Shown one piece after another: positions 1 to 23,737 of a stretch of 23,737 nucleotides of DNA. Numbering within the stretch: the first letter of the stretch is position 1; each line of letters begins with the position of its first letter. Both the position numbers and the translations under genes were made by a program. The notes under the pieces are model-generated. The model saw only the letters and a list, made by a program, of their open reading frames with translations, searched no databases and was not told where the DNA came from. Source of the DNA: a virus. The stretch lies in IMG/VR virus record IMGVR_UViG_3300025141_007001, positions 1 to 23,737 of that record; one strand, 5' to 3'.

Positions 1-3000
1 GACATCGTCACTCTTGATCATGTTGACCAGGTTCCTCTGGGCCTTGACCACGGTCCCTTTCGATTTCCCGTACTGCGTGAGCTTCTGTCTAAGATCATCT
101 ACCGACTGAGGACCTTTATCTTTATTAGTCAGCCGCCGTGTCCACTGGGCTGGCCCGGCGAGGGGCCATCCAGTGAGGGGACTGATCCCGGTGGCGATCT
201 TCTGGCCTGCTCGCATCAAGTCTTTCTGCCACTCAGTATTGCCAGTCTCGTTGACCCGTTTCTCTACCGCCTTGCTCATACCCTCCATGAACAGGGCAAC
301 CCCTGCGGCGGTCTGGTCGGCCCCGCCGGAGATGATATTCAGACGCATGAACTGTTGTCGACCGTAGCCCTTACCTTCACGCAGATGGTTCTTTGCATAG
401 GTGGTGGCCGAGTTCACAATGTCGCCACCGATGATCCAGTTGCCGAACAATCGGTTGACTCCAGTGACCAGGACGTCGCCAAGTTCATGGTCACGCCCCT
501 GGATCAGGGCTTCAACCCCAGTACCTATAGCCGTCACTCCGGCGGCATTGATCAACAACGGGACGCTGATCTCTTTAGCCAGCCTGGCGTGATCCTTGAT
601 TGTCTTCTGACTGGCATTGAATTTAGACGAAGCCATGATCGCCATATTGAGATTCTTATTTCTCTGACTACTGAACATCAGGCCTGGGACCAGGAGTTTC
701 CATGCAGGGTTACCTGCGGCATGCAGGACCAATTGCGACACGGTGGTCACGCCCCAGGTCGGCTGAGTGTATTGGATAGTCTTGTGTGCCAGGTCGGCTG
801 TGTATTCGAGAAGGCCCATGCCCTTCAGGCCTTTCGACTGGCCTTGAAGTTTGGCCCCTCTCCAGATATTCATAATCACTGCGGAGTCAGCCATATGGAT
901 CGGCTTCAAGCCAAGCTCTACAAGGGGAGTTGAGGCTCCGTAGAATTGCCGGACGCTCTCACCGACCGCTGCATCTGGGGTCATTATGTTGTGAGCCGAT
1001 CCCAGGAGCCTTGCCCGGATGGAAGCGGCAAACGGATTCTTATCTGCGAACATCAGAATCTCGTTCTTGGTCTTGGAAAAGAGTGCCGGGTTAGATGCCC
1101 GTGGGTCAGTCATAAACTTAGCAGGTATCACGTTCATCGCGTTGGCCAAGGACAATGTCTGGTATGCCCAGACCTGGGGCTTCAACCCGAGGATGCCGAC
1201 GTTGGCCTTTTTGACGAAGTTGCCGAGCACCTGGTCGAGCACCGTTCGCGGCTTGGTTTCCAGGCCCTCGAATTTCTCGACCATCTCATTGAGACTGCGG
1301 AGCATCTTCTTTCCGCCCTTGAACCTGTCGAGTACGGAGTTTTGGAACTTCTGATTACCGAGCATTCGCTTGGCGTTATGCACCGACTCGGCGGAGGATA
1401 TGAACTTGTACCGTCGATTCATACCGGCGAAGAATTCACTAAACGCATCCCCGACATGGATCGGCTGGTTGCCACCCTTCCGCTCTTTGAGGATGCCCAT
1501 GCGTTCCAGGGCAACCTTGGTGAATGTCTCTATAAAACTGCTCGGCTCCTTGTCTTCGAACTTAAAGCTCCGGCGGCGGGGAGTGACGTCGGTCCTGGTG
1601 AAGACGTCAAATCCCATCGTGGAATTTGATACGCGATTCATCTCAGCGATCAGCTCCGGCGAGTTGAACCTGGAGTGGAGCTCCTGGGCAATGGCCACCT
1701 CGGTCTTGGTCGCGGATTTCTGAATAGCCTTGATGTCTCTTGCGGTCAGCTTATACGCTTGTCTTCCATCAAAAGTAATACCCTCTGATGTATCCTTCAG
1801 CACTTGATGCCTGGTATCAGGATCGAGCATGTGCATCAGGAAATGAATTCTCTGGGCCGGAGTAATCTTGATACTCTTGGCTCTCTTGCCATAGCTACTG
1901 ATAGCGTCGGGCAATTCGACCTTGACCCGAACAGCTCCGGCCTGTCCGCCGGTCAGCTTGCTCACCAGGTTCCTGGACAGGCTGCGACCGGACATCAGGC
2001 TGTCGCTCATCTGTTCGACGTCTTTGAATTTCAACCCGAGCTTCTTCATAAAATTAGTCGGGGAATCAAAAGACTCCTTATACTGGAGCTGATTGAATCT
2101 TCCTTCGCTCCGTTCTGGATCGCGGATCAGCGTCCTGAACGTCTCGCCTTTATCACCGGCCATGCGAAACACATTGACTGTATTATTGTGTTGCTCTGAC
2201 CAGAACAACTTGCCGATAGCATTGGCTGCACCCTTGGTCTTCGATGTCGCAGGTTCATGCTCGCCAATCTCCAGTGCATGCTTAGGCTTGTGTCTAACCT
2301 TCATCTCTTCGAGGGAAGACTCCATAACTTTGTCGGCGTCACGGGCTTTGCCCTTGCCTATGAATACCTTCTTTAGTCTGTCGTTGTTAACCGCCATCTT
2401 GATCGCCGCAGTGATCGACCTGAGCTCCGGCGTCGACAAGTGGTGCTCACTCCTGGATGTAGCATCCCGCAGGATATTTCTTGCATTGTCATAGAGCACC
2501 TTGTGGATGTCGCCGACGTCAGCCTCGAAATTGGCGATTAAAACTTCAGCCTTATTGAGTGCGTCGAGCGACGGGGTCTTAAGTGCGATCCCATCGGTGA
2601 TCTCCTCGACCTTAGACAACAGTATGGCATTCTCTCTATTCTTAGGGATCGAATTCATCACCCTTTTCAACTCAGAGACTTCGTAGTTGCGTGTAGCTTT
2701 TTCGACATACTCGTTGATCTTGTCGGTCGCTAGTTGGATGGCCTTGGTATCACCAGCCTTGATCTTCTGGAGCCCAGGCATGATCTGCTTGAACATCTTG
2801 GGCGGGAGCCGCAAGCTGGCTTCACGCATCAGGTCGCCGGTCGTCTGAACCTGCTCGGCCACCCCGAAGGCGAAACCCCGGTGCGATGCCGTCTCAGAGG
2901 CCTTGTGGAGCAATGTGTTGACCGCTGCTGGCGTGTAAGCCATTTCCTCTGGCAGAGGCTGGCCCACCAGCTTCTGCTCTCTAGAGCGAATCCTGGCGAT

Positions 3001-6000
3001 TACACGGTTGAGCTGCCGGACGTCGGTCGCGGCCTTGACCGCTGGCTCGTACTTGGAGTAGTCACCGCCGATGGTATTCCTGGCCCAGGCCTCGACCGAT
3101 GCCTTCTGCTCAGTCAGGTCTTTGCCGCCGAGGGCGTGAGCGGTATCAGCAACGAGCCCTTCGCTCTTCAGTCGGCTGACCAGGGCATCCCTCTGGGAGA
3201 CGAGATTTCCACCGGCCCCGATATTCGGGTCCTTCGCGATGGATGCACCGATCATGTCAGCGAGCTGGTTCAGGCGGTCTTCAGAGTTAGCCGTTCGTAT
3301 TTTCTTCATCCACGGCTGCATGGCTGCTTCACCCATCAGCCGCTCGCCGGTCGCGATCATGTCTTCCTTGGCATCGATCAGTTCGGCGTTCTGCTTGATC
3401 GCAGCCTTGAATGCATTGGTAGCCGACTCGGCGGACTTCCTGATGCCAGCCGTTAACGCCTGGGCTTCAGTGAGGGTTTTCTCATCACGCTTACCCATCA
3501 GCCCGAGGATGCGAGTTTTTGTTCCAGTCTTTTTCCATTCAGAGGGAGTGTGATCATTGGCCAAGATACCAGCCGCCTTGACCAGGGCGTCGGCCTGGGT
3601 CCCGATCTGGTCGCCGTACCTGGCGATGAATTCTTGTTTGAGTTGGTTGGCCTTGAAAGTTCCGGTGACGATTTTCGCCGCACCCCATACGGCTGCATCG
3701 AACATCATGTCCGGGTTCTTGATGAACGCATTCATCGATCCGGCGGATGATGCGATCTTTTTGCCCAGGCGAACTTCGGCTTCCTTGCCTGCCTGTTTAG
3801 CCTTGCCGACAAGGCCAGGTAAAACCTTGCGGTGCTCCGGCATCTTGTCGGGATTCTTGGCGTAGAACTCGTTCAGTTCTTTTTCGGTGGCATCGCTGAA
3901 CGCATCAAGACGGGTGTTGTATTTGTCTACCGCTTGCTTGATTTGTCTTTCTTCGAAAGCGATATTCGCCAGTCTTGATCCTTTCTGAGCGTTTCGAAGA
4001 ATTTTTCGGTGTACTTCGGAAGCAACCTTTTTGTCGAGCCACTCGAAGTCTCCTGCGGACTCGAAGAACTCGACTCGCTCGGCTTCGGTGGGGAAGTATT
4101 TGTCGAGGAGTTTTCTTTGGTTTTTAGGGATTCGGTCAAGCCAGTATTGGTTTCTTGGTTCGGCATTTCTCAGCTTCTCCTTTAACTTGTGTATATTGGC
4201 CTTCATCGCAGCCTGGTCGGGAATATAATCATAGCCATATTTTGTTTTGAAGCCAACCATATCAGATGCCATGTTCTGAACATGGTCAGGAAGGGTTTTC
4301 ATAACTATGTCAGCGAATTCATTTTCCGTTATCTTAGTTTTTTTGCCAAACTCTTTTTCAGTGGGGACCAAGTCGAATCGAGTGCCGTCCGCACTCCACT
4401 CGGTGATCATTTCATTAGCATAGCCCCTGGCTTTAAGCTCCTTTTTAATAGCCTCGGAAGCAACGAGGTTACTTTCAAAGCCCTTAATAAATACACTAGG
4501 GACTGGAGTTGTGTCTTTATGTTTAGTTCCTTTGGATATGTCGACAATCTTGTGTGCGGCGGCAGCGTCCTGGTCTGTCCATAAACCCACAAATGACAAT
4601 ACAGCTTGCCTCTGGTTGGGCGTGGCATCTCCCTTCATCGGCACTCGGACGATCATCGAGGTGGCGTCCAGGTATGACCCGGTCGAGCCCCGGACATTTG
4701 TCTCAGTCGCCTTTTGGTCCCCGACTCCGATCCTGCGTATGTCCGTCGTCTTGGGATCGCCACCCTTTGCCGACAGGTCAGGCTTCTTACCAGTGATAGC
4801 AGCATATAGCCAGGTGTAGATTTTATGTTGAGCTATCTTTCCTGTAATTGTTTTGTATTTGCCCTTGGTTTCAAACAGGTCAGTGGCCAGAGTTTTTTGT
4901 ATGTGCCAGTACCCATCCTTAGCACCTTTACCACCAAGACCCCGTGCAACCAGTTTGGGGTCGCCTGTCGCTCGGGCTTCAGCCGCCAACTCACGGGCTC
5001 TCTTTCCCTGCGGGGTGAGCAGGGTATTCATCTCAGCCGTCATAAAGCTTGAATCTGCAAACTCCTTGGCCGTAACCCCTCGCACCGCATAGGTGAAGCT
5101 CGGATGATTAAGTACATTCCTGTCTATATACTCAACCCCGTTCTTGTCACTTGGAACCTTGATACCGAATTTCTTCAGTTCCCCTATTTGGTGAACGAAG
5201 GCTTCTTCAAATGTTCCGACCACATGTGCAGGGGCGTTTTTGATAACGTCGCGATTCATCCAGTACAACGCCTGGAGCTGCCAGGTCTGGAACGGCTCCT
5301 CTCCTGGCTTCAGATTCTTGTTAAGCCTTTTAGCTTGTAGACTAAGAAACTTCGATACGGTTTCATAGTCTGCCCCGTTGACGGCTGCACCCTTCTTACC
5401 GCCAAACATGTTGTTCATTATTACATCGATAGTCGGACCTGGGATCACCTTCTTAAGCCCAGACAGGTAAAGCATCGTGTCGACAAAGTTGCTTGTCTTC
5501 AGCCGGTCGCCGCCGGATATTGCCCCAGTGATCGCTCTGCCAATTGGGCCTTTGTCTAAGAAGTCAGTAATAAAACCCTTCTTACCCTGAATGCCCTCGG
5601 CTGTAGCAGAAAGCGTCCTGGACATGTTCTCTAAGACCTTGGTATTCTGGCTGGTCGCAGAGATCATATTGAAGAAAGCTTCCATCTCCTTGGGGCTCAG
5701 TCCTCTGAGATATTTCTTTGCACCACCTTCAGAAAAGAGTTCATACCAGAACCTGGATTCATTGGTCCCTCTCAATGCTTCGTGAATAAACGCTTCGGAC
5801 GGGGGCTTCATTATCGTATTTGGATTATTGGAAGATATTTTGGCTGCCTCGAAGTCAGCTAAAATCTCCGCTCCTGTCGGTAGCGTGCCAGACTTCACAT
5901 TGCCCTTGCGAAGCGATTCGAACTTGCCCCCGGTCGCAGTGGGGACCGATACCCCGGTGTCCCTCGGGGCGTTGTACTTCGTTGGCTCCAGCCGGTGAGG

Positions 6001-7992
6001 GTAGACCAGCTTGTATTGTTCCAGGCTCCTGTTCAACGTCGAGTGAGCCTTAACGATCTCTGTAGAATCCTCAAACAACTTAGCCACATATGGCTTAATG
6101 TCTTTGCCGTGCTCCTTGATCATCTCTTTGCTGAACTCGGCCAGGGTCATCGTGCCAGCCCCGAGCTTCGCCGCTCCGATGATCGCATAGTCCGGGAGGT
6201 CGGCGGTATTGAACAACGGGTTGAGCTTGGACTTGATGTAGCCGCCCTGGCGTTTGGTGATACGCTCGATGGCCTGGTCGGCTGAGAGATTAAGCGAATC
6301 CTTAAGAGTCGCCCCGGAAGCCCCAGGGGCCGATAGGGGGGACTTGCCCTGTTCGACCACCTGGAGCTCGGGGCTATCAGCCTCGGTATCCTCTGGTAGT
6401 CGGCCACCGGAGGCTTGACCCGGTAACACACCGGGTACAGTAAATTCTGCTCTAGATTCATAATCTCTTATCGACTGTTCCAATTTGCTTACTCTCGGAA
6501 CGTCGACCGGCTCTTCGCCTTGGTCAATTCGCTTGGAGTTCAATCGATCAATTGTGTCTCTGTATTGCTGTTCGCTGATATACCGCTCTAGCTTCATATT
6601 CTCCAGGCCGTCTAATACCTTAGAATACTGAGCTCTGCTCAGACTCTCTTGCGAAATACCCTTACGGTCTAACCTGGTCTTGCCCCCATGCTTAAACCCG
6701 AAGCCGCCGCCAAGCTTCAATCCTGCAACCATTGCAATGAACCTGGTGGCCTCACCCATATTGTGCATCCGCTGGATTTCATTTTGATACTCGGATAGAT
6801 TTGGATCATTGACCTGATCTGATGACGCCCAGATTTCAAACGGCATCTTGCCGAGCATTTTAACAAATTCTACAGGAGCCCCAGCTATCTCTTTGGCGTT
6901 GACATCTCCGCCCTGTTGAAATGCGGTAAGAGCTGATAGGAACCCAGATGTCCCGGCTACGCCCTGAATAATCTTACCGAGGCCAAGACTCTTCGTTATC
7001 CCTTGATATAAATTCTTGCCTAATTTGGCAGTACCCAATAACGGGTTGCCGGGGAACGGAACAAACGGTGCAATCTCTGCTGCATTCTTGGCAAAGATTC
7101 TCTCCAGCTCACCCTTCTTGGTATCAGACTTGAAACCGCCGAGCATCTCCTGGACGCCTTCTCCAGTGAGTGCGTCAGCCATCTCATATCGATCCATGCC
7201 GCCAGTGATGAAGTCTGGCAATACCGCACTGGCAATGGCCGTGCCTTTGTCTAACAGGCCAATCTTTTCTAGCCACCTGGCTGCGGGGTGAATTATTGAA
7301 CCTGTCGCCCCACCGAGTCCTTCAAGCACCGCAAATTCCCGGTCAGTCGACCCGACAGTGCTCGGCGTCTCTTGTGCTCCTGCATTACGCATTGACCGGT
7401 CATATGTTCCATCGTCAGTCAGCTCGCCGCTCGGATGGGCCGGGTTGACATCAAACAGAGTGTCGGGGCTCGGTAGGCCCAGACCTTGATCCTGCGGGGC
7501 GAAACCCATCTCCGGCAAACCAGGCAAGTTTTCGTCGGCATTAAAGAAAGCGGAGAGCCCCCGTGTCTCTCGACCGAGGGCGTGCTCGTTGGCGTTGTCG
7601 ATAATGTGTTGCGGGATCAGGTCCGGCCTGCCAGGCGGGACATTCATTAGGAGTTCGACATCCGAGTACGAAGTGGTCGAGGTGATGGTCGGAATCTCCC
7701 GACCGTCGACGTTCACCGAGAACTCGGTCATGTCCAGCCCATCCGGCCTGGTGAATGTGCCTTGGAAGCCAGGGCCTTTGATCGATCCATCAGGACGTAC
7801 AGCGTCGGGTCTGTAAGGGGTCGGGAAGCTCTGTAACGGCTGAGAGACTACTGGCGGTCCCATTGGAGCCTGGGGCAGCCCAGGAGCCCGTGACGCAGCG
7901 TACTGGTCAAACGTCTTTGGCTCGGGCTGCGGCATCCACTGTTGGGACCGCTTTCGCTTGCGGAGCTCTTCATCTACCGGGGGGAGCGGCAT
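1..7992 (-). CDS. Giant multidomain internal virion (ejection) protein, 3' end outside window
   Basis: Starting at the ATG at 7992, I read every codon to position 1 and found no stop, so at least 2664 residues are encoded and the C-terminus lies outside the window. A GGAGG at 8002-8006 precedes the start, and the upstream gene ends 5 bases away. Residues 66-150 form a small module with KGPGFQG, RPDG and EIPT motifs that I recall in other phage virion proteins. Residues about 745-915 (RFWYELF, ISATSQNTK, PTIDVIMNN, QTWQLQALYW) resemble a phage domain I know as DUF7178. Residues about 1200-2060 look mainly helical. From about 2118 to the edge the sequence (TPRRR, GLKPQVWAYQ, TQPTW, then a hydrophobic stretch near 2468-2490) resembles the C-terminal region of very large phage and polyvalent proteins. 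No HExxH, no lysozyme motif and no T7-like RNA polymerase motif was seen. Its place corresponds to T7 gene 16, so a DNA-ejection role is inferred. Confidence 0.85.
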   Translation of the reverse strand, partial: MPLPPVDEELRKRKRSQQWMPQPEPKTFDQYAASRAPGLPQAPMGPPVVSQPLQSFPTPYRPDAVRPDGSIKGPGFQGTFTRPDGLDMTEFSVNVDGREIPTITSTTSYSDVELLMNVPPGRPDLIPQHIIDNANEHALGRETRGLSAFFNADENLPGLPEMGFAPQDQGLGLPSPDTLFDVNPAHPSGELTDDGTYDRSMRNAGAQETPSTVGSTDREFAVLEGLGGATGSIIHPAARWLEKIGLLDKGTAIASAVLPDFITGGMDRYEMADALTGEGVQEMLGGFKSDTKKGELERIFAKNAAEIAPFVPFPGNPLLGTAKLGKNLYQGITKSLGLGKIIQGVAGTSGFLSALTAFQQGGDVNAKEIAGAPVEFVKMLGKMPFEIWASSDQVNDPNLSEYQNEIQRMHNMGEATRFIAMVAGLKLGGGFGFKHGGKTRLDRKGISQESLSRAQYSKVLDGLENMKLERYISEQQYRDTIDRLNSKRIDQGEEPVDVPRVSKLEQSIRDYESRAEFTVPGVLPGQASGGRLPEDTEADSPELQVVEQGKSPLSAPGASGATLKDSLNLSADQAIERITKRQGGYIKSKLNPLFNTADLPDYAIIGAAKLGAGTMTLAEFSKEMIKEHGKDIKPYVAKLFEDSTEIVKAHSTLNRSLEQYKLVYPHRLEPTKYNAPRDTGVSVPTATGGKFESLRKGNVKSGTLPTGAEILADFEAAKISSNNPNTIMKPPSEAFIHEALRGTNESRFWYELFSEGGAKKYLRGLSPKEMEAFFNMISATSQNTKVLENMSRTLSATAEGIQGKKGFITDFLDKGPIGRAITGAISGGDRLKTSNFVDTMLYLSGLKKVIPGPTIDVIMNNMFGGKKGAAVNGADYETVSKFLSLQAKRLNKNLKPGEEPFQTWQLQALYWMNRDVIKNAPAHVVGTFEEAFVHQIGELKKFGIKVPSDKNGVEYIDRNVLNHPSFTYAVRGVTAKEFADSSFMTAEMNTLLTPQGKRARELAAEARATGDPKLVARGLGGKGAKDGYWHIQKTLATDLFETKGKYKTITGKIAQHKIYTWLYAAITGKKPDLSAKGGDPKTTDIRRIGVGDQKATETNVRGSTGSYLDATSMIVRVPMKGDATPNQRQAVLSFVGLWTDQDAAAAHKIVDISKGTKHKDTTPVPSVFIKGFESNLVASEAIKKELKARGYANEMITEWSADGTRFDLVPTEKEFGKKTKITENEFADIVMKTLPDHVQNMASDMVGFKTKYGYDYIPDQAAMKANIHKLKEKLRNAEPRNQYWLDRIPKNQRKLLDKYFPTEAERVEFFESAGDFEWLDKKVASEVHRKILRNAQKGSRLANIAFEERQIKQAVDKYNTRLDAFSDATEKELNEFYAKNPDKMPEHRKVLPGLVGKAKQAGKEAEVRLGKKIASSAGSMNAFIKNPDMMFDAAVWGAAKIVTGTFKANQLKQEFIARYGDQIGTQADALVKAAGILANDHTPSEWKKTGTKTRILGLMGKRDEKTLTEAQALTAGIRKSAESATNAFKAAIKQNAELIDAKEDMIATGERLMGEAAMQPWMKKIRTANSEDRLNQLADMIGASIAKDPNIGAGGNLVSQRDALVSRLKSEGLVADTAHALGGKDLTEQKASVEAWARNTIGGDYSKYEPAVKAATDVRQLNRVIARIRSREQKLVGQPLPEEMAYTPAAVNTLLHKASETASHRGFAFGVAEQVQTTGDLMREASLRLPPKMFKQIMPGLQKIKAGDTKAIQLATDKINEYVEKATRNYEVSELKRVMNSIPKNRENAILLSKVEEITDGIALKTPSLDALNKAEVLIANFEADVGDIHKVLYDNARNILRDATSRSEHHLSTPELRSITAAIKMAVNNDRLKKVFIGKGKARDADKVMESSLEEMKVRHKPKHALEIGEHEPATSKTKGAANAIGKLFWSEQHNNTVNVFRMAGDKGETFRTLIRDPERSEGRFNQLQYKESFDSPTNFMKKLGLKFKDVEQMSDSLMSGRSLSRNLVSKLTGGQAGAVRVKVELPDAISSYGKRAKSIKITPAQRIHFLMHMLDPDTRHQVLKDTSEGITFDGRQAYKLTARDIKAIQKSATKTEVAIAQELHSRFNSPELIAEMNRVSNSTMGFDVFTRTDVTPRRRSFKFEDKEPSSFIETFTKVALERMGILKERKGGNQPIHVGDAFSEFFAGMNRRYKFISSAESVHNAKRMLGNQKFQNSVLDRFKGGKKMLRSLNEMVEKFEGLETKPRTVLDQVLGNFVKKANVGILGLKPQVWAYQTLSLANAMNVIPAKFMTDPRASNPALFSKTKNEILMFADKNPFAASIRARLLGSAHNIMTPDAAVGESVRQFYGASTPLVELGLKPIHMADSAVIMNIWRGAKLQGQSKGLKGMGLLEYTADLAHKTIQYTQPTWGVTTVSQLVLHAAGNPAWKLLVPGLMFSSQRNKNLNMAIMASSKFNASQKTIKDHARLAKEISVPLLINAAGVTAIGTGVEALIQGRDHELGDVLVTGVNRLFGNWIIGGDIVNSATTYAKNHLREGKGYGRQQFMRLNIISGGADQTAAGVALFMEGMSKAVEKRVNETGNTEWQKDLMRAGQKIATGISPLTGWPLAGPAQWTRRLTNKDKGPQSVDDLRQKLTQYGKSKGTVVKAQRNLVNMIKSDDV

Positions 7993-11302: not shown

Positions 11303-11623
11303 TCATGTCTTAATTATTTCAAACGACTTATCGAGGTCACCCGGTTCTGTACCGGGAAGCCTGAACAGTTCATCATCGAGGTTGTCACCCTCGGCAAAAT
11401 GGATGTGACCTATTTTCTGGAATAAGTTTCGATGTGAGGATTGAAGGACCAGCCGCCCATCCATAAGCAGCCAGCCCTCGGGTATTGTAGTCTTTTCTCC
11501 ATGCCATGTAATGGAAATCCCGGTAGGAATTATCATTGATAACCTGACGAGGTTGTCGTCGACCCGGTCGAACTCATCTCGGAGCCGCTCGTCTTCCAAG
11601 GGATATACACGTTTATGAATCAT
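11303..11623 (-). CDS. Stand-alone phage tail collar domain protein, 106 aa
   Basis: The start codon at 11623 overlaps the TGA of the nozzle gene as ATGA, indicating translational coupling. Residues 1-30 form a charged helix. Residues about 32-95 show the phage tail collar pattern (PF07484): IPEGWLLMDG, then LFQKIG, then GDNLDDELFRLP, in the expected order and spacing. In longer fibres and microcins this domain sits near the distal or joint part; here it makes up nearly the whole protein. It may be a small tail tip, plug or fibre-attachment part working with the nozzle, as its coupling to that gene suggests. The domain assignment is firm; the role is inferred. Confidence 0.8.
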   Translation of the reverse strand: MIHKRVYPLEDERLRDEFDRVDDNLVRLSMIIPTGISITWHGEKTTIPEGWLLMDGRLVLQSSHRNLFQKIGHIHFAEGDNLDDELFRLPGTEPGDLDKSFEIIKT

Positions 11624-14600
11624 CCACGCAGCCCCTTGTCTGTGAAGTTGATCATATAGCCCAAGAGCGAAATCGGATGAGAGTCGTTACCGGAGAATTC
11701 CAGGCTGATGCTTTTTGCTTCAGCTCCAACATAGTACGGAGTGTCCTCGACTCCTACATAGTCAGGATGATTAACCGGAGGTGGATTGATAAGCCCTCCA
11801 TCTTCATCGACCGGGGCCTTGGCAATAACAAAAAACTTTTTCTCTAACCTTGGAGTTATCAAATTGTCTATAACCGGCTTCAACCCAATTGATACATGTG
11901 AGAAAGCTCCGTCTAAATCAGGATGATCATCTACTCTCCATGAACTGTTTATGTCTCTTATCTTCTTCTTGCTGGACTGATCTCCGAAACTCAGTTCAGG
12001 CAATTTGAAAAACCAGGATATCTGGCCCCCGTTATCATCGAAGTATTCTTCTTTAGGCCTGGAGAATTTAGTTAGCCTTCTGTCTGTAGTACCGCCTAAG
12101 AGCTGAATCTCTCCCTCGGTATCCCTGAAGACGGCAAGAGACAGTGTGCCATGTTCAAAAGCTTCAGGCCCAACAACGCCTTTGCCAAAACCCCAGTTCA
12201 TCCAGGTCTGGGAGTCTTGATCCCAAACCAAGGCATTGCGGTTAGGTGTTTCCTTGTCAACAGAGAGAGTGTCTTCATCGAGCCTGAGAACATAGAACAA
12301 AATATACCTTCGATAATTCGGATCGAAGATCGCGGTCGCATTGCTCATATTGATGTCATGCTTCCAAGTTGATTCTGAAACCCTCGCCCAGGTATCAGCT
12401 ATGATCGCACTGATCATCGTGGCATTGACGCCGTCAAATATATAAACTCCTGATGCACTGGCGTAGTAAAGTACCGACATAGACCCGGTCTTGGCCGAAG
12501 ATACAGCAATGGTCCGGTTGTTTATGCAGCCAGCAGCGTTGCGAATCTTGATGAACGCCAAGCCCTCGTCATCTATCACCGAGATGTCGATGGTGTAGAC
12601 CTCTTCCTCGGTGAAGATCATCAACTGTTCACCGAACGCCTTGATGGCTGTTATGTTTCCCCCTGAAGGCAGAACGTCGAAATTGTATGCAGGTACATAC
12701 TCAGCACCGCTTCGGCCATCTCCCTGTTGAAAAGGTAGACTGTAGTAAACAGTCCGGCCATTGGGCGGAACATAGAAAACCCTGCCCTTGAACTCTTCGA
12801 TGAATGCAGAAGGGGGAGGGACGCCATGGTCTTTGGGAACTGGCCTGCTTTTATTTATTTCAGTGGCATCTTTGAAGTCCTCATAAGAGCCAATGATTTT
12901 ATATTTAGTATCATTCTTGATAACCGTATTGGCACCAGCCGGGGTCTTCCACGCAGCGTTGACAGTAATCAACCTCGGAGTTGCTCCGGCTGAATGATCA
13001 TATTGAGTGATCGTCCTGGTCTGTCCAGCAGCTACGGTGCTTGATCCTGGACTGGTAATAACAACAGTCTTACTTACCATTCCAGTTGCGAAATTGGCGG
13101 CTGAGTGATCCGTGCCGTCGACTTCCATGCTTAACGTATTATTAGTTAATTCATTCTGGGAAGCCGTCTTCTCGGCCCCCGCATCAATGTCCACCTCATC
13201 GACAAAGCTCCAGTCAAATTCCTGGTTAGTACTTATTACACGCCGGTAGATTCTTATCTTATCTGCGAATAAATCCAGCTTGGTTCCAGAATTATGACCG
13301 TACCAGGTTGCCGGGACAGACCAGTGGATCAACATGGAATGCGTGTCTTCCGCGACAGTCCCCAATGCTTCAGCCACAAGCTCGGCGGATGGATCACTTT
13401 CCAATCCAGAGGTGGTATCGTAATAAGTGAATTTATACCCGAAGATTGTTCCAACATCGGCTATTACATTAGCGGGAGTGTTTGTGCTATCGCTTATTTC
13501 AGATGCCGCATTAAAACCAAAACTCTTGATGGGGGCCGCAAGTCCAGCGAGCCTAAGTATGTCGACCCGATTAACACTGGCATAGGCCATGACCGGGGTG
13601 CTCTCGATAAGGACAGACTCATCCTCTTCTTTGATAGGAGTAGCAATGGTCGCTCTTTTTATCCGGCCCTGAGGCTGCCTGCCACCCCAGTATAACATTG
13701 AATTCGGTGCGTCGATAGCCAGGGCTGACACATGGCCATCATTAGGATTTACCCGGTCATCCTTGTCAAAGACCTTTGTCTGGGCTGACTCTGCGGACAT
13801 GTCAGCAGTCCTGAATACTCCCAGACCACCTACCGAAAAGTAGATTCTATTATTCGTTGTGTCTAGTTCCAACTCACCAATCAATTGGGTAGTCGGATTA
13901 GTCAGGGTTATGTGTTGAGTGACTGTCCCCGCCGCAGCATGACTATCGTATTTTCTGATAGCGAAACTTCCTCCAACCAGGGAGGAGAAATAGATATCAT
14001 CATTCGCCACATCGATTACAAGTTCCTGGGCTCCAGTTGTGGTGACCAGGTCGGTCACGCTCCCGCTGCCATCTTCAGCCCCCTTCTGGATTTTCTGAGT
14101 TCCATTGTCAACCCAGAAAACCTCATTGCTTGTATGGTCATGGTCGATACTCACCGGGAACTCCAGCCCGTCATCAGAATCGAATAAGACCTTATAATTC
14201 TCGCCGTCTAAGTCGCACCGAACAATAGCCCCTTTACGTCTCTCGCAGAAATAAACCTTGCCACCGGCTGGATCGATATCAAGGTCAGTAACCCCGTCAA
14301 GATGTTCAAGAAGAATCTCGGCGTTAGTCCCATCCAAGTCTGACCTGGAAAGAGTGCCAAGCAAGTTGTCGGTCCAATATAATTTAAGATTTGTCAAATC
14401 TAGAGAAATACTTGCTGCTCTGGATAGAGAGTCCTTGGATGCAGCCATAAGCGTCCAGCCCCCGGCGTCAGCGTATTCAGCTTCCTGGCCTAGGCTGAAA
14501 TTAAACTGAGCTGCCCCGACATCAGATATCGCTTTGAGCTGGTCATCAGCCAGGGGGTCATACCTATAGAGCTTCGATTCAATTGAACCTATGCTTTGTA

Positions 14601-14853
14601 GAAGAAGTGTATCAGGCCCATTGCCGCCCTCGTCTGGGATTGCATGTATTGTGGCGAGCCGGTCGCCTATAGAATTGGTACTGAGAATAGGGAGTTCTTT
14701 CAGCCCTCGCCTGGGGCGAATCTTGCCGCCATAGACTTCCATGTTAAATGCTTTTGAAAGCTGGCCTGGCTGCAAAAGGTCCCGCGAAGTCAATTCATCT
14801 ATGCCGGAGAATTGACCGTAGTGTGCGAACCGCTTTGCATTTTTTCTTGCCAT
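11620..14853 (-). CDS. Tail nozzle (tubular B / hub-like) protein with inserted YWTD beta-propeller, 1077 aa
   Basis: The ATG at 14853 lies 6 bases after the adaptor stop, with only a weak Shine-Dalgarno sequence. The N-terminus (LLQPGQLSKAFN, then GGKIRPRRG) is typical of podoviral nozzle or stabilisation proteins. Residues about 145-425 contain six motifs of the LDL-receptor YWTD type: KLYWTD 157-162, KVYFCE 199-204, EVFWVD 244-249, DIYFSS 286-291, RIYFSV 336-341 and MLYWGG 386-391. Their spacing is 42-50 residues, and two are followed by DLDG turns, as expected for one six-bladed propeller. Residues about 660-900 return to the usual nozzle pattern (EFKGRVFYV, TVYYSLP, ITAIKAFGEQLMIF, ASGVYIFDG, FDPNYRRYILF, ALVWDQDSQTWMNWG). 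The protein is about 280 residues longer than T7 gp12, close to the size of the extra propeller. It should form the hexameric lower tail below the adaptor ring. Confidence 0.85.
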   Translation of the reverse strand: MARKNAKRFAHYGQFSGIDELTSRDLLQPGQLSKAFNMEVYGGKIRPRRGLKELPILSTNSIGDRLATIHAIPDEGGNGPDTLLLQSIGSIESKLYRYDPLADDQLKAISDVGAAQFNFSLGQEAEYADAGGWTLMAASKDSLSRAASISLDLTNLKLYWTDNLLGTLSRSDLDGTNAEILLEHLDGVTDLDIDPAGGKVYFCERRKGAIVRCDLDGENYKVLFDSDDGLEFPVSIDHDHTSNEVFWVDNGTQKIQKGAEDGSGSVTDLVTTTGAQELVIDVANDDIYFSSLVGGSFAIRKYDSHAAAGTVTQHITLTNPTTQLIGELELDTTNNRIYFSVGGLGVFRTADMSAESAQTKVFDKDDRVNPNDGHVSALAIDAPNSMLYWGGRQPQGRIKRATIATPIKEEDESVLIESTPVMAYASVNRVDILRLAGLAAPIKSFGFNAASEISDSTNTPANVIADVGTIFGYKFTYYDTTSGLESDPSAELVAEALGTVAEDTHSMLIHWSVPATWYGHNSGTKLDLFADKIRIYRRVISTNQEFDWSFVDEVDIDAGAEKTASQNELTNNTLSMEVDGTDHSAANFATGMVSKTVVITSPGSSTVAAGQTRTITQYDHSAGATPRLITVNAAWKTPAGANTVIKNDTKYKIIGSYEDFKDATEINKSRPVPKDHGVPPPSAFIEEFKGRVFYVPPNGRTVYYSLPFQQGDGRSGAEYVPAYNFDVLPSGGNITAIKAFGEQLMIFTEEEVYTIDISVIDDEGLAFIKIRNAAGCINNRTIAVSSAKTGSMSVLYYASASGVYIFDGVNATMISAIIADTWARVSESTWKHDINMSNATAIFDPNYRRYILFYVLRLDEDTLSVDKETPNRNALVWDQDSQTWMNWGFGKGVVGPEAFEHGTLSLAVFRDTEGEIQLLGGTTDRRLTKFSRPKEEYFDDNGGQISWFFKLPELSFGDQSSKKKIRDINSSWRVDDHPDLDGAFSHVSIGLKPVIDNLITPRLEKKFFVIAKAPVDEDGGLINPPPVNHPDYVGVEDTPYYVGAEAKSISLEFSGNDSHPISLLGYMINFTDKGLRG

Positions 14854-14859
14854 TCATAG

Positions 14860-15603
14860 TTACCAATTGTGGAAGAACAAGTCATCGTCCGGTTGAGTAG
14901 CTTCTTGAACAACCCCATCACCTACAGACTGGTCGAGGACAAAATTGTTTTTAAGTTCAAGGTAAATCGATTGTGCTCCAGGCATCAGCGTGTCGTCAGA
15001 GTTCAGTAAGTTGATTACGGCCCTCTGCACCAGAAACTCATGGTGATAATTAGGAAGGCCTGGATAAGACTGGCTGATATCTTGAACAATGCCTTCGTCG
15101 TTCCCGAAGACAGGGATGTTAGTGATCGCTTCGAGCTTCATCACAACGCCACTGGCGTGTACTACTGGGAATACTACATAAACATCCTTCTCGTTATTCG
15201 GGATATCGACATCGTATCTGAGCCACCAGACCAGGCGATTGCGGTCGTCGAACCCGCTGGAGTATGACCACCTGGTTTCATTGAAAGCCTTAACCTGTTT
15301 GGTTGGCTCGTCCTGGGATGTGTCAGTCCTGATCGCCCGGTAAACCCGTTTGAAATAATTGTGACCACTGAACTCATCACCAAGGCCGTCATCAAAGGAG
15401 CAGATGAATTCTTTTGCAGAGCCGTCCGTTGTGATCGTGGCCGTGGATATCAACTGGTGATCGGTGGCATACAGGTTGAGTAGAGTACCCATGAACACAG
15501 CCGCTCGGTTAAGTTCAAACACAATCTCCTCATCGGACCACCGAGTGTGTCGGCGGTCATCGATGCGTCGGCGTGCCAGGAGTATCATTCCATGTTGATT
15601 CAT
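14860..15603 (-). CDS. Head-tail connector adaptor (tubular A-like), 247 aa
   Basis: The ATG at 15603 lies 3 bases after the TAG of the previous gene; no clear Shine-Dalgarno is seen, so translation is probably coupled. The N-terminus carries the usual adaptor signature: ILLARRRIDD, RRHTRWSDEEIVFELNRA, that is, an Arg/Asp-rich start followed by RWSD and a helix ending in LN-A. The middle is a beta-rich insert with many Trp and Tyr (SYSSGFDDRNRLVWWLRYD), and the C-terminus returns to helix (YHHEFLVQRAVINLL). This layout matches T7 gp11-type adaptors. The protein should form the dodecameric ring between portal and nozzle, and its gene lies directly before the nozzle gene as in T7. Confidence 0.8.
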   Translation of the reverse strand: MNQHGMILLARRRIDDRRHTRWSDEEIVFELNRAAVFMGTLLNLYATDHQLISTATITTDGSAKEFICSFDDGLGDEFSGHNYFKRVYRAIRTDTSQDEPTKQVKAFNETRWSYSSGFDDRNRLVWWLRYDVDIPNNEKDVYVVFPVVHASGVVMKLEAITNIPVFGNDEGIVQDISQSYPGLPNYHHEFLVQRAVINLLNSDDTLMPGAQSIYLELKNNFVLDQSVGDGVVQEATQPDDDLFFHNW

Positions 15604-16690: not shown

Positions 16691-17632
16691 TTAGGAGTCC
16701 GCGACCGGAGTCCAGTTGATGGCCAGGGACTTCTGGTTGGCAGCATTACCGACCGTGACGTCTTCACCAACAACTCGGAAGGTCGCACCAGTGATCGCCG
16801 TAGTGACGTTCGCGGCGTCATCTTCCAGTTGCAGATCAAGTGCCGGACCCATGATTCCGGTCGAGCCGGTGACGGTGTCCATGATGCAGATATCGTCGCC
16901 ATGTCGATTGCGAAGTTTGCAGTTATTGACCTTCAGATCAACAACAGCAGTCGTCCGGCAATCGATGCAGCCGACGTCGCCATCAACATCAATATCACTA
17001 TTGATAATCTCAACATCAGTGCATCCGGTTAATGCGATTGCAGAGTTAGCCCCGGCGGCTGCCGAACCACGAAATACCAAACCGTCGATCTTCATGCGGT
17101 CGGCGGCTGCCGTAGCAACGATACAATCGGTGGCCTGACCAGTGCTATCCCGGTACTCGCAATTCTTCAGCAAAAAGTCGGATGCCTGGATGCTCAATGG
17201 ATTAGTCAAGGCGTCGACGCCGCCAAGGAACAATACGTTCTTGAACACGCAGCTCGCCGCCGAAACCACCAGGCTCGCACCAACAGCAGTGTCGAAGGTG
17301 ATCGTCGGACGATCAGCCCCGTTGCCGAAGCCGAGCACGGTGACGCCTGCAATATCCATGGTCGCGGCTGAAGCCGAGGACAGGGATTCCGTATGGCCAG
17401 GCAGGAGCACGATGACGTCGCCCTTGCTCGCCGTACACTGGTTAATTGCATAATCCAGTGTCGCGAACGGTAGGTCCCGTGTCTTGCCGTCGCGGGTCGC
17501 GACGTCGGACCCGTCAGTGTTGTGAACAAAATAGACCTCATTCGGAATGTAGTCTACCAGTTGTGCCACTCTGTTCTTGTCAGAGTTCGATTGAAGTGTT
17601 GCCATTTCCGCTGATGTAAAATACTGACCCAT
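16691..17632 (-). CDS. Parallel beta-helix virion protein, probable head fibre or decoration, 313 aa
   Basis: The ATG at 17632 follows GGAG at about 9 bases. Residues about 25-65 (NTDGSDVATRDGKTRDLPFATLDYAINQC) match the usual entry of pectate-lyase-like repeats, with 'G--PF-TL--A' and then KGDVIVLLPGHTES. Residues about 85-260 are rungs of short alternating strands (ITGVTVLGFGNG-like turns, VFKNVLFLGG, LLKNCEYRDS, VEIINSDID, LKVNNCKLRN), the signature of a right-handed parallel beta-helix. No lyase active-site set is evident, so enzyme activity should not be assumed. Being in the head module, directly before its terminator, favours a head fibre or capsid-surface protein; a receptor-binding spike is the alternative. 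Confidence 0.8.
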   Translation of the reverse strand: MGQYFTSAEMATLQSNSDKNRVAQLVDYIPNEVYFVHNTDGSDVATRDGKTRDLPFATLDYAINQCTASKGDVIVLLPGHTESLSSASAATMDIAGVTVLGFGNGADRPTITFDTAVGASLVVSAASCVFKNVLFLGGVDALTNPLSIQASDFLLKNCEYRDSTGQATDCIVATAAADRMKIDGLVFRGSAAAGANSAIALTGCTDVEIINSDIDVDGDVGCIDCRTTAVVDLKVNNCKLRNRHGDDICIMDTVTGSTGIMGPALDLQLEDDAANVTTAITGATFRVVGEDVTVGNAANQKSLAINWTPVADS

Positions 17633-18201: not shown

Positions 18202-19518
18202 CTAGTTGCTGGCGTTGAGGTTGTTGACCTCAATAGCAGTCAAGTTGGTTGTAGTGAACATCTGCTGACGGGTGAGGATGTTGGCACGGTACGATTCGAC
18301 AGGCCGACCATTGATCGCGTCGGTGAGCTGCGTCCAAATAGACCCAGTTTTGTCATCGAACCAAGGCATCCGCATGACATAGCGGTATGTGTTATCAGGA
18401 TCAACCCACCGGGCCTTGGTTACCGGAGCATCGTCGTCTAAGACGAAGAAGGTCCGGTCATAGGTCATGGCTTCCCAGCCGCCTCGTACCATCTTAGTGA
18501 TATTGCCACTAAACCGGACATCCTTCTGGAGCTGGTTGTAGAGGGCGTGCCAGTTGCCTTCGCGGAGGAAGCAGATCATCCGACGATGATTGCCACCGGC
18601 CTGACCAGCTCGCAAGCGAACTTCGCGGTGAGCTGGTTGAATATGCTCCTGGATATTGAAGATGCTGTTGCCACCATCAATCTGTTTACCTTTCCAGAAG
18701 GCATTGGGGGTTAAGCTCTTGTCGATCCCGCCATACTGGTCATTGCCGCTTCCACCCCAGTTGTCTGGATTGGTTTCGCTGACAAAGACGCCAAAACCGT
18801 TGCACTGCAAACCCTGCTCGCCAAAACCATAGACGCCGTGACTGGCGGAAGTGGTCATTGAGGCTGTAGTGTTGTCGTGCTTCTTAACCGTGAGTTGCTC
18901 GTTAACCAAATCGACTTCAGTGATCTTCAACGGCTGGCCAGCGGTAGAGCCGGTGGCCAATGCCCCAGTCGATCGATTATGAATACCGATCTCCTGGTCG
19001 ACCTCGTACTGGGTCATGTCCGCCCCAGTTGCGAGCTGGACTACATTCGTCGCAGTCGTTGTTCCACACTGCGAAAATTCGCCGGAGCCGTCCTGGTGCA
19101 AAAGCCAGTTCTGACGCCGTCGCATATTTTCTTTTTGACCATCCATTTCCAGAGCCAACTGCGAGCCGACGCTCTGCTCACCGCCACCGGCCACATCAAA
19201 TACGATACCCAGCATTGATAGCGACTGGTTCTGAGTGGTGATGTTGTGGATGGCACTTCCCCACTTCTGGCCACCCGGTTCAGCGAGTGACGCACCAGGC
19301 GAAACTGCCACGGATCGGTTGGGGTTCCGCCCAGTCCACATGGGGACCTTGACGTACTGACCTTCCTTTTTAGCCAATTGAGGCAAGGCGTTAGGCCCCG
19401 ATTGAATTAAATCAAGGGCGGGCTCCCCGCTGATCATCTGCTTGAAGATGCGATCACCGAACGGAAATACTTCTTTTGTTAATGCACTAATTGTTGCTAG
19501 ATCAACGGCGGCTGCCAT
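18202..19518 (-). CDS. Major capsid protein (HK97 fold), 438 aa
   Basis: The ATG at 19518 has the strongest ribosome binding site in the window, AAGGAGG, shown in a hairpin loop. The N-terminal helix (ISALTKEVFPFGDRIFKQM) is followed by the usual capsid pattern: EGQYVKVPMWTGRN, then ALEMDGQKENMRRRQNWLLH (the spine-helix region with many charged residues), then a beta-rich domain. The C-terminal part has WHALYNQLQKDVRF, TFFVLDDD and YRANILTRQQM. Size (438 residues, against 430 in P22 and 345 in T7) and the portal-scaffold-capsid order support the call. No protease gene or cleavable delta domain is seen; a separate scaffold is encoded instead. Confidence 0.9.
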   Translation of the reverse strand: MAAAVDLATISALTKEVFPFGDRIFKQMISGEPALDLIQSGPNALPQLAKKEGQYVKVPMWTGRNPNRSVAVSPGASLAEPGGQKWGSAIHNITTQNQSLSMLGIVFDVAGGGEQSVGSQLALEMDGQKENMRRRQNWLLHQDGSGEFSQCGTTTATNVVQLATGADMTQYEVDQEIGIHNRSTGALATGSTAGQPLKITEVDLVNEQLTVKKHDNTTASMTTSASHGVYGFGEQGLQCNGFGVFVSETNPDNWGGSGNDQYGGIDKSLTPNAFWKGKQIDGGNSIFNIQEHIQPAHREVRLRAGQAGGNHRRMICFLREGNWHALYNQLQKDVRFSGNITKMVRGGWEAMTYDRTFFVLDDDAPVTKARWVDPDNTYRYVMRMPWFDDKTGSIWTQLTDAINGRPVESYRANILTRQQMFTTTNLTAIEVNNLNASN

Positions 19519-19521
19519 AGG

Positions 19522-19539
19522 TGAGTCCTCCTTGACTCA
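19522..19539 (-). promoter_or_regulatory. Hairpin displaying the capsid gene Shine-Dalgarno in its loop
   Basis: On the minus strand TGAGTC-AAGGAG-GACTCA forms a perfect 6-bp stem with a 6-base loop, and the loop is the AAGGAG ribosome binding core. The stem ends 3 bases before the capsid ATG at 19518. A loop location would keep the site single-stranded and accessible, which fits the need for high capsid synthesis. Confidence 0.6.
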
Positions 19540-19557
19540 GTCCCTGAATTGTTTTTC

Positions 19558-20424
19558 TTACTGTCTTCCTGCGTTAAGTTCTGCCATACGCCTGTCGAAC
19601 ATAGATGCTTTGTCCGAAAGCGATTCATTGTTAAGATTTCTCCCGGTATCGGTCGTCCGTGACCCACCGGGAGAATCGCCAGCTCGCAAGCGAGCGGCTT
19701 CGCGATCCGTGATTGTTTGAATTGATTTGTCCTGACGAAGGCGACCATACTTCCCAGCGTAGTGCTTGAAAGCGATTGCCGTCTCATCTTCGACTTGCTG
19801 CTTAGTTACCTGGCCGAGTTGGTTGGCATCACGCAGACCGGCGAGCTTTCCACCGACATGCTTCAGGACGTCGTCGCGGACTTCTTTGGCCAACACTTCG
19901 TCACCCTTGGTTGCAGGGTTGACATCAATTAGACGAGCGAGCTCAGTATTGGCGTTGTCGGCCCCGATCTGGAACAAGGTCTGATTCTGAGAAACCTCGG
20001 CCATGTTCAGGAATTTGCCAACCTGCTCCTGGGTCTTGGCCTGGGACGCCTCGATACCAGCCATCCGTTTGACCAACCATTCATCGTTAACCTGCTCGGG
20101 CTCAGGCTCGGCGACAGGCTCGACGACAGGAGTGTTAACACGCTCACCTAATTGAGCGATCTGCTCTTGCTGTTGGGTGAGCACCTGGTTCTGGCGTTGG
20201 ATTTGATTGATGAGTTGCTGTTGGAATTCAGACGGCTGCTCAGGGGCCGGGGTTTCATCGGTAACTACCGGAGCATCTTCGGTAACAACCTCGGTAACGA
20301 CCGGCTCGTCTTCGTCTAAAACACTAGGCTGATTGTTGAGGGAATCATCGGCGGTTAGACCCATGTCCTCGTTGTACGTTGCGTCGTCCGAATAGAGGGA
20401 GACGTCTTCAGTACTATCTGGCAT
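19558..20424 (-). CDS. Capsid scaffolding protein, 288 aa
   Basis: I chose the ATG at 20424, preceded by AGGA at about 9 bases; an in-frame TTG at 20463 has no good ribosome site. Residues 1-60 are very acidic and disordered, residues about 63-96 form a Gln-rich coiled coil (QQQLINQIQRQNQVLTQQQ), and a second helix covers about 115-145. The C-terminus (DKASMFDRRMAELNAGRQ) is a short, basic helix like the capsid-binding end of P22-type scaffolds. The length is near P22 gp8 (303) and T7 gp9 (307). The position between portal and capsid genes is the standard one for a scaffold. It should guide procapsid assembly and then leave. Confidence 0.8.
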   Translation of the reverse strand: MPDSTEDVSLYSDDATYNEDMGLTADDSLNNQPSVLDEDEPVVTEVVTEDAPVVTDETPAPEQPSEFQQQLINQIQRQNQVLTQQQEQIAQLGERVNTPVVEPVAEPEPEQVNDEWLVKRMAGIEASQAKTQEQVGKFLNMAEVSQNQTLFQIGADNANTELARLIDVNPATKGDEVLAKEVRDDVLKHVGGKLAGLRDANQLGQVTKQQVEDETAIAFKHYAGKYGRLRQDKSIQTITDREAARLRAGDSPGGSRTTDTGRNLNNESLSDKASMFDRRMAELNAGRQ

Positions 20425-20472
20425 CAGAAATTTTCCTGTCGAGGCAACAGGCGACACGAACAATATAGACCA

Positions 20473-22794
20473 TCAGACACTAGGTTGTCCACCAGTCTCT
20501 GGTGGCTTGGCTGGTTTTGAGGTCCTGGGCGACTTCTTACCCTGTGGTTTTCTGGCCGGTTTCTGGCCCTTCTGGGCCTCCGCCTGTTGCTCTTGCATCT
20601 GCCCCATGATCGCCAAAGGACCGGGCAACATGACCTGAACCATCTGTAGAGCTTGTTGAATTGCCTGGGGGTCAGCCCCCTGCTGTTGCATCTGCTGTAT
20701 CTGCATCATCTGACGCTGGCGGAACTCCTGATACAGCCGTATATCGGCCTCACGGTTCAAATATTGAGGTCGCAGAATCTCCTCCAAGACCCCGACTTCA
20801 TGCATATGACAGTGCTGATCGATCTCCTGGGCAATCTGCGGGAACTGCTGGACGACCATTTTGTACTGCTCTGTCTGCTTCCATCGCTTGTGCTCACTGT
20901 AATGGAACGTGTCATTGTCGCTGGCATTAGGCATACCCACCTGGCCACCCTGGAGCCACATGGTGTGCTCATCATTGACCTTGGATTGATCGCGACGGTT
21001 AACATCAAAGGCCTCGTTGAGTTCGCCGATGTCCAGGATTTTCCCGATCAACGCCCGGTCGGTCGCCGGATCGAGCACCGGCTGACCGCCAGTCAGGACC
21101 TCCAGGGCCGCGAACATCTGCCCCTTGCTTGAAGGCAACTGGCGAAACGAATCAACCCGAAGGTTGGCAGGGTTAGCTCCAGGTTGCCCATATTTCGACG
21201 GGCGAAGCATTTCACCATTGAAGTGCTTAACTTCTCCCCGATTATTTTCTCCGATGACATGAATGATCTTGGTGTCGACCATATTGTCCATCAACAATTC
21301 AAGTATCATCGACCCGGCGGTACATATAGCCTCATCCATCTCGTTGGCAAACCCAATGAGACGCATGTCATTTGTTTCTTTAACTTCGGCGATGGCCACC
21401 CCGGACTTAACCCCAGCTCCCCGAGGATCGCCCAAGTCAGCCTGAGATGTTCCGCTGATCTCACCCATCGACCGCAATGCTCGCTCAAACGCAATCTTGG
21501 GATCGTTTCCGATCTCCGGCCTGCGGACTACCTGGGGAACATGGCCCGGCGAGGAAACGATATTGATCTTACCTGGGCGAGTGTGCCAGGCTTTATCATT
21601 ACTGACGTCACCGGAGATTCTGACCATCGTATGGTGGGTCATATTCTTTCGATGATTGGCCTCATCTGAAATAGCCTGGTTGGCCTCTTGCTGCATCGAC
21701 CGCATCTGGTCGACAGTGCAGGTTCCCCAGAGCTTGCCGGGCAACGGTTTCTCTTGGAGCACCACAACCGGGGTCCGTCTGGACCGGAGCTGTAAATCCT
21801 GCGGCGGTCTAATTGTTGTATTGCCAATCACTACTGCATGTCGACCGCCGATCCAGTCGGGGTCCGGCTTCTTCCATACTTCGCGGACAACCAGCTCGCC
21901 GTCGCTCCCGTCGCCAGGGCCGATCCGAGGAGAGATACTAAACTCGGTGTCGTTGCTCAAAGCTGTCTTGTAGTCCTCTTCCTCGAATACGGTCCCAGCC
22001 ATCTCGGTCGAAGCCAGCTCTCGGACCTGGGCTCGCTTCATACCGAAGGTGGAAGCTATTTCGCCGATAGTGCGAATCCTGGACCGAATCCAGATGTCCG
22101 CATCGTTGAAGTGAATGATATTGAATGGCCAGAAGTCCATCTCAAACAGCGGGGCGATGCTCATCGCGACGTCGCCAGTCTTGCGGACTGCACCGCCCTG
22201 AGCCAGGGCCTCTTCGCCAAACATCTCGGCGAAGGCCTGAATACCCGCCTGCGGCGGAGCTCCATGGGGAGTCATCTGGTCCGGGGTGATAACCATCTCC
22301 TCCCCGGCATTGGGGTCCCATGAAGGACACAAGAAGACCGTCCGAGTGGCCATGGCCCACATCGCAGCATCCCGAATGATACTGGACATTTTTAGACCCT
22401 CAACGTAATACCAATTGAGGACGTCGTTGGAGAGTTTAGCCGTGACCTGATCGGAGGTATCGTCGGTCGAAGACAGGACACGCCATACGGGATCGCGGCG
22501 GACCAGGCGAGCGAGACGCTGCTCGACCGAAGGAAGGATAATATTGACAGTGCGAATGACTTCGGAGCCGGGCCGCTCGTAGTCACGTTCCATACGGCTG
22601 TTAATGCGGGACCACTTCAAGTGCTGATTGCCCTGGAGGAATTCCAGGTTGATCATGGCTGAACGCTCGGCCTCTCGCTTGTATTCGCGATTGCGGCAGA
22701 TGGCGTTAACTGTTTCGGCTATGGACTGCGGATCGTTCCAATCTGTGGAATCAATAGATGCAGAGCTCAAGCCCGTTTGCATATCAAGTGACAT
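20473..22794 (-). CDS. Portal protein, 773 aa
   Basis: The ATG at 22794 overlaps the preceding gene by 11 bases. The N-terminal part has the podoviral portal layout: EFLQGNQHLKW, then VNIILPSVEQRLARLVRRDPVWRV, a helix-rich wing, and RDAAMWAMATRTVFL. The core continues with WIRSRIRTIGE, PLPGKLWGTCTVDQMRSMQQEAN and SGTSQADLGD. Residues about 692-734 are a Gln/Met-rich helix (RQRQMMQIQQMQQQG) that may form the internal barrel seen in P22-type portals. The last 32 residues are a Lys/Pro-rich tail. The portal forms the dodecameric vertex through which DNA is packaged and ejected; terminase should be encoded upstream, outside the window. Confidence 0.92.
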   Translation of the reverse strand: MSLDMQTGLSSASIDSTDWNDPQSIAETVNAICRNREYKREAERSAMINLEFLQGNQHLKWSRINSRMERDYERPGSEVIRTVNIILPSVEQRLARLVRRDPVWRVLSSTDDTSDQVTAKLSNDVLNWYYVEGLKMSSIIRDAAMWAMATRTVFLCPSWDPNAGEEMVITPDQMTPHGAPPQAGIQAFAEMFGEEALAQGGAVRKTGDVAMSIAPLFEMDFWPFNIIHFNDADIWIRSRIRTIGEIASTFGMKRAQVRELASTEMAGTVFEEEDYKTALSNDTEFSISPRIGPGDGSDGELVVREVWKKPDPDWIGGRHAVVIGNTTIRPPQDLQLRSRRTPVVVLQEKPLPGKLWGTCTVDQMRSMQQEANQAISDEANHRKNMTHHTMVRISGDVSNDKAWHTRPGKINIVSSPGHVPQVVRRPEIGNDPKIAFERALRSMGEISGTSQADLGDPRGAGVKSGVAIAEVKETNDMRLIGFANEMDEAICTAGSMILELLMDNMVDTKIIHVIGENNRGEVKHFNGEMLRPSKYGQPGANPANLRVDSFRQLPSSKGQMFAALEVLTGGQPVLDPATDRALIGKILDIGELNEAFDVNRRDQSKVNDEHTMWLQGGQVGMPNASDNDTFHYSEHKRWKQTEQYKMVVQQFPQIAQEIDQHCHMHEVGVLEEILRPQYLNREADIRLYQEFRQRQMMQIQQMQQQGADPQAIQQALQMVQVMLPGPLAIMGQMQEQQAEAQKGQKPARKPQGKKSPRTSKPAKPPETGGQPSV

Positions 22795-23215
22795 CGCCTG
22801 CTAAATCCTCGGGATTGACCAGTCCGCCAGCGTATTCGTTGGCGATTCGTTCCTGGATGAGGCGTTGGCGATCTGCTTCTTCAAAAGACTGAGGGGAAGG
22901 TGGAGGGATCAGTGACCCGTTGTCGCCGGTAGTCACGATCACCGGCTCACGCTGGACAACCTTAGTGGCCATATCATGGCTCAACCGCTCCAGGGTCTGG
23001 TTGGTCGAGGTGGAAACAGCAGCCGATTCAGACAGGGCCTGAATTCCAATCCGGCTGGTGTCGGCTGAGTTCTTCAGGGTCTGCTCAATCGCGGCCATGG
23101 CCAGGCCGATGACTTGCTTCTCCTGCTTGGGCTGGACCTCCATCATCAACTTACGGGTCCACCAGCAGAGGGCTGCTGTTATAAGAGTTAGATATATGAC
23201 TAAAAACCAATCCAT
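22784..23215 (-). CDS. Small membrane-anchored protein of unknown role, 143 aa
   Basis: The open frame extends up to 23392, but I place the start at the ATG at 23215: it follows AGGAG at about 10 bases, and the longer frame would overlap the upstream gene by 164 bases with low-quality, Ser/Arg-rich sequence. From this start, residues 2-19 form one membrane helix (DWFLVIYLTLITAALCWW) followed by RK. Residues about 35-90 are helical, and the C-terminus is Pro-rich then charged. A spanin-like or other envelope role is possible from the topology, but no motif settles it. The stop codon overlaps the portal start, suggesting coupled translation. Confidence 0.65.
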   Translation of the reverse strand: MDWFLVIYLTLITAALCWWTRKLMMEVQPKQEKQVIGLAMAAIEQTLKNSADTSRIGIQALSESAAVSTSTNQTLERLSHDMATKVVQREPVIVTTGDNGSLIPPPSPQSFEEADRQRLIQERIANEYAGGLVNPEDLAGDVT

Positions 23216-23228
23216 TGGTGAGGCTCTC

Positions 23229-23633: not shown

Positions 23634-23652
23634 AAGAAAACTCCTTGATAAG

Positions 23653-23686: not shown

Positions 23687-23690
23687 GGGG

Positions 23691-23722: not shown

Positions 23723-23737
23723 ATAGCCTGGATCGCC

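Follow-up and report, generated by a model that had tools for sequence, protein, structure and literature searches.

A six-bladed YWTD propeller in a nozzle-like tail protein of an uncultured short-tailed phage

Sequence profiles and a predicted structure reveal a six-bladed YWTD propeller in residues 142-418 of a 1077-aa protein, most likely the tail nozzle, encoded by an uncultured short-tailed phage (IMG/VR record IMGVR_UViG_3300025141_007001). All positions given here refer to the window, i.e. the whole stretch of 23,737 nt that we analysed, in which the propeller is encoded at 13600-14430 on the minus strand. YWTD propellers are known chiefly as modules of animal receptors, where they mainly mediate protein-protein binding. 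Both the YWTD propeller and the nozzle are familiar, but we found their combination in no paper among the open-licence literature.

A six-bladed YWTD propeller

The open reading frame of the 1077-aa protein (tail tubular protein B type; 11620-14853, minus strand) is uninterrupted and contains six YWTD-type motifs, which begin at residues 157 (KLYWTD), 199 (KVYFCE), 244 (EVFWVD), 286 (DIYFSS), 336 (RIYFSV) and 386 (MLYWGG) and are spaced by 42, 45, 42, 50 and 50 residues. A first-pass annotation made from the sequence had reported six such motifs at a spacing of 42-50 within residues 145-425 (13579-14421, minus strand), and all six were found where it had placed them. By comparison, no more than three motifs appeared in any of 20,000 shuffles of the segment. 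The aspartate of an h-x-h-D pattern precedes the motif in each of the six repeats (D152, D194, D239, D281, D331 and D381).

A profile of five YWTD propellers from other phages, from which the 1077-aa protein was left out, gave residues 141-425 a score of 103.7 bits (E 4.8e-31), and 1000 shuffles yielded no match. The Pfam family PF00058 scored 29.1 bits, above its curated cut-off of 21, with only one stretch passing alone. When we used phmmer to search the sequences of the Protein Data Bank, the matches were exclusively to nidogen and to proteins of the LDL-receptor family (LRP2, LRP4 and LRP6); their E-values reach down to 3e-46 by summing many repeats in repeat-rich chains, and the best single stretch has an E-value of 2e-5.

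We predicted the structure with AlphaFold2 from an alignment that combined the protein, seven related nozzles and the five phage YWTD propellers. Residues 144-405 form six blades in the high-confidence part of the model. The pLDDT is 92-98 between residues 150 and 289, within blades 1-4, and drops to 47-91 for blades 5 and 6. The five YWTD rows in this alignment favour a propeller fold, whereas the model played no part in the sequence profiles. Taking motifs, model and profile together, the predicted blades (all on the minus strand) comprise residues 145-187 (blade 1, 14293-14421), 188-231 (blade 2, 14161-14292), 232-276 (blade 3, 14026-14160), 277-323 (blade 4, 13885-14025), 324-373 (blade 5, 13735-13884; less certain at residues 350-370) and 374-412 (blade 6, 13618-13734; last strand of low confidence).

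The best Foldseek matches of this model among solved structures were all to the LDL-receptor family or nidogen (LRP6, LRP4, LRP2, LDLR and nidogen), including nidogen 1npe with a TM-score of 0.69 (2.8 Å over 225 columns). In a library of viral structures the best matches were less strong (4e-8), with identities of no more than 15%. The six-bladed YWTD propeller proposed in the first-pass annotation is therefore borne out by PF00058, the Protein Data Bank sequence matches, the phage profile, AlphaFold2 and Foldseek, with blades 5 and 6 being the less certain part.

Compared with the propellers of LRP6, LDLR and nidogen, the one described here has the same six repeats, YWTD-type motif, h-x-h-D aspartate and predicted fold, but it resides in a phage protein, its blades 4-6 are degenerate (parts of the LDG repeat pattern have been lost) and it lacks an EGF module. 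A search for such a module after the propeller gave no match, and the entire protein has only three cysteines (203, 213 and 776). A following EGF module is a defining feature of the animal receptors and not of the YWTD propeller.

Probable nozzle identity and placement of the propeller

Because of remote homology in a core segment and the order of the surrounding genes, the 1077-aa protein is most likely a tail nozzle (tubular protein B), an assignment that we regard as strongly supported. BLASTP matched residues 684-782 to gp51 of Roseobacter phage CRP-345 (29% identity, E 8e-8), which is annotated only as a 'putative tail structure protein' and sits in the nozzle position. A profile of CRP-345-like nozzles found residues 682-782 by hmmsearch (9.1e-8) and did so again with inserts removed; the conserved core segment of the putative nozzle (residues 682-783) lies at 12505-12810 on the minus strand. 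In a family search, phrog_511 matched residues 729-820 (E 8.6e-8). The label of this family, 'internal virion protein', counts against the nozzle assignment, and we give it little weight.

The genes run in the order portal, scaffold position, coat, adaptor position, nozzle and large ejection-type proteins, as they do in Arthrobacter phage Casserole and in CRP-345. The P22-type portal passes the Pfam cut-off and the coat protein belongs to phrog_14242, while scaffold and adaptor were assigned by position; the 247-aa protein in the adaptor position (14860-15603, minus strand) had no family match. Another protein, of 313 aa (16691-17632), lies between the coat and adaptor-position genes, looks by eye like a right-handed beta-helix and has no family match above threshold. 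At the start of the window, a giant open reading frame of at least 2664 aa (1-7992), likely encoding an ejection protein, matches phrog_28077 (a family of unknown function, E 9.6e-33).

A sequence search against solved nozzle structures gave no match for the 1077-aa protein, and AlphaFold2 modelled its nozzle core with a pLDDT of only about 30; the nozzle of a relative was also modelled poorly. The whole protein had no tblastn match in INPHARED. In IMG/VR, searches with the 1077-aa protein (entire or core alone) and with the coat, portal and giant proteins found no close relatives except one overlapping contig, whose coat and portal genes are identical to those here and which ends short of the nozzle. 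Within window positions 18202-23737, IMG/VR contig L005 (3300025131_006136) is identical across the portal gene and the first part of the coat gene; it runs about 11 kb past the window with the terminase gene.

The propeller is probably not part of the standard nozzle core but a lineage-specific addition upstream of it, since PF00058 is absent from the whole records of Casserole, CRP-345, L008 and L061. The lack of the propeller in all related nozzles checked agrees with the insertion suggested by the first-pass annotation. The stretch from the N-terminus to the core varies among nozzles in both length and content: the core starts at about residue 210 in Casserole (684 aa), 311 in L061 (661 aa), 457 in CRP-345 (807 aa) and 682 here. 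In nozzles of the CRP-345 type this stretch holds a different added domain, which resembles domain B of pb9, the distal tail protein of T5 (PF21430, 23.6 bits, below the cut-off of 27; phrog_1302), indicating that the N-terminal stretch tolerates inserts. CRP-345 gp51 and its IMG/VR relatives thus share the homologous core and the preceding adaptor gene with the 1077-aa protein, but carry pb9-B-like inserts in place of the YWTD propeller. These pb9-B-like domains occupy residues 199-247 of the L061 nozzle (L061:4001-5983) and, in the N-terminal half of CRP-345 gp51, residues 327-403; their copy number seems to differ between the 661- and 807-aa nozzles.

A seven-bladed propeller already belongs to the core of the T7 (gp12), SU10 and crAss001 (gp44) nozzles, where further domains are inserted at blades 2-3 or close by (PMC6702177, PMC9509320, PMC10172136), and the nozzles of SU10 and crAss001 have grown by inserted Ig domains (PMC9509320, PMC10172136). 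The 1077-aa protein is like these three in its gene-order position, its conserved core with remote relatives and the presence of large inserts upstream of the core, but they have the canonical seven-bladed propeller only, and their inserts are Ig-like or of other types rather than YWTD. Our guess from the sequence is that the YWTD propeller is inserted within the second canonical blade.

When its flanks were joined without the insert and compared with relatives, a significant match was found in the core only, and the flanks alone gave only weak, unrelated matches by tblastn. Between propeller and core, residues 455-575 (13129-13491, minus strand) resemble an Ig/Fn3-type domain by eye and had no family or tblastn match. 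The GC content of the propeller (0.48) is like that of the adjoining residues 419-1077 (0.47-0.48), so that base composition gives no sign of recent transfer. A YWTD propeller in a nozzle is known from this one genome.

YWTD propellers in other phages and in bacteria

The first-pass annotation had associated YWTD propellers with eukaryotic receptors and some bacterial surface proteins. Among phages, however, the propeller is not unique to the 1077-aa protein, and a few unrelated phages have it in other proteins, mostly of virion type. YWTD alignments were used to scan IMG/VR twice, which brought up nine contigs, and PF00058 exceeded its cut-off in all seven of the other IMG/VR phage records searched. 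L079, L097 and L101, which are related IMG/VR phages, each encode a separate protein composed mostly of YWTD repeats (L079:4951-6906, L097:5578-7209 and L101:5770-6936); its gene comes a few genes after the coat gene and ahead of a neck-type gene, and it had no PHROG family. In L099 the YWTD protein exceeds 2400 residues and is encoded downstream of a tail sheath gene, and several of the proteins in L080 and L081 are very large and contain at most two propellers apiece. In the big contigs (L080:1-10533, L081, L099:5092-12345 and L082:1-12375), the very large proteins have at least one YWTD-type propeller amid fibre-like sequence.

The proteins of L079, L080 and L097-L101 share YWTD repeats with the 1077-aa protein, those of L079 and L080 aligning over all six blades, but they are fibre-like or encoded beside coat, neck or sheath genes, and none is a recognised nozzle. 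The L079 protein had no match in 50,697 INPHARED phage records, which makes proteins of this sort a rarity in the phage catalogues, and we found no papers on YWTD-bearing phage proteins in the open-licence literature.

Bacterial relatives of the propeller occur in Calditrichota, Saprospiraceae, Gemmatimonadota and others; in blades 1-3 they are 30-44% identical to it, compared with 29-37% for the phage relatives. A search of the bacterial genomes with YWTD for phrog_511 gave no match, and its control was likewise without one. Judging from the identities, the propeller more likely came from a prokaryote than from an animal.

Possible roles of the propeller

We propose that a whole six-bladed YWTD propeller was added to a podophage-type nozzle between its N-terminal part and its conserved core. 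The two ends of a closed propeller lie side by side, so a loop of the host protein could accommodate it with no disruption of the surrounding fold. In the hexamer, the YWTD propellers would form a second ring beside the canonical ones, most likely facing outward. The first-pass annotation envisaged six propellers around a hexameric nozzle and in doing so overlooked the canonical seven-bladed ones; because canonical nozzles already have a core propeller, the hexamer would have twelve, six canonical and six YWTD, or two per subunit. An outward-facing lobe of this kind would bind protein or glycan and thereby help the tail stick to the cell surface. We infer the position of the insert in the nozzle fold, its outward exposure and its adhesive role, and consider the chances to be about even that the propeller is an added, outward-facing binding lobe that serves in adhesion.

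Bacterial receptor binding by nozzle-type tail tubular proteins has been reported (PMC7241545), and propellers are present in other phage receptor-binding proteins (PMC4901313). phi11 Gp45 (five blades), PRD1 P2 (five) and PhiKZ gp131C (seven) resemble the 1077-aa protein in having a propeller in a part that would recognise the host, but theirs are of other types and outside nozzles (PMC4901313). We also count in favour of adhesion that the YWTD propeller proteins of other phages adjoin coat, neck or sheath genes.

The gene next to the nozzle (11303-11623, minus strand) overlaps the nozzle stop by 4 bases and encodes a 106-aa protein with a predicted phage tail collar domain (PF07484, 24.1 bits, cut-off 24); in CRP-345 a fibre gene is found there. 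A free-standing collar protein in the usual fibre position fits an adhesive role of the propeller as well as a second one, in which the propeller serves to dock another part of the virion (a tail fibre, a spike or the small collar protein) and does not itself bind the host. Docking would suit both this neighbour and a fold that is mainly a protein-protein binding module. The T7 and SU10 nozzles do bear fibre docks (PMC6702177, PMC9509320). Nevertheless, no long fibre gene is recognisable within the window, although the window stops inside a gene and one may lie beyond, and we consider docking possible but on the unlikely side.

It is doubtful that the propeller acts as structural filler, stiffening or extending the nozzle hexamer and having no ligand. 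Inserted domains do enlarge other nozzles, as the Ig domains of SU10 and crAss001 illustrate (PMC9509320, PMC10172136), and the partial loss of the repeat pattern in blades 4-6 would be consistent with such a role, but a propeller that is compact and closed, with ends of its own, would be an unusual spacer, and in L079, L097 and L101 the repeats constitute most of a separate protein encoded near the coat gene. Finally, T7-type nozzles do have a seven-bladed propeller (PMC6702177), but it is very improbable that the segment is this normal nozzle propeller with repeats resembling YWTD by chance, given its six blades, its match to LDLR-type sequence profiles and folds and its position upstream of residues 682-783, which align with other nozzles and correspond to the propeller section in P22-type tubes (PMC10386132).

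Returning to an adhesive lobe, a broader form of the proposal is that aquatic tailed phages repeatedly use YWTD propellers as virion adhesion modules and that the one built into this nozzle makes the nozzle itself a primary host-binding part; we offer this only tentatively and think it unlikely to hold in full. The YWTD domain is compact and can be made and assayed for host binding. Our results suggest that phages and animal receptors exploit one and the same binding fold, and that the nozzle, usually viewed as a plain conduit, may be able to bear extra binding lobes.
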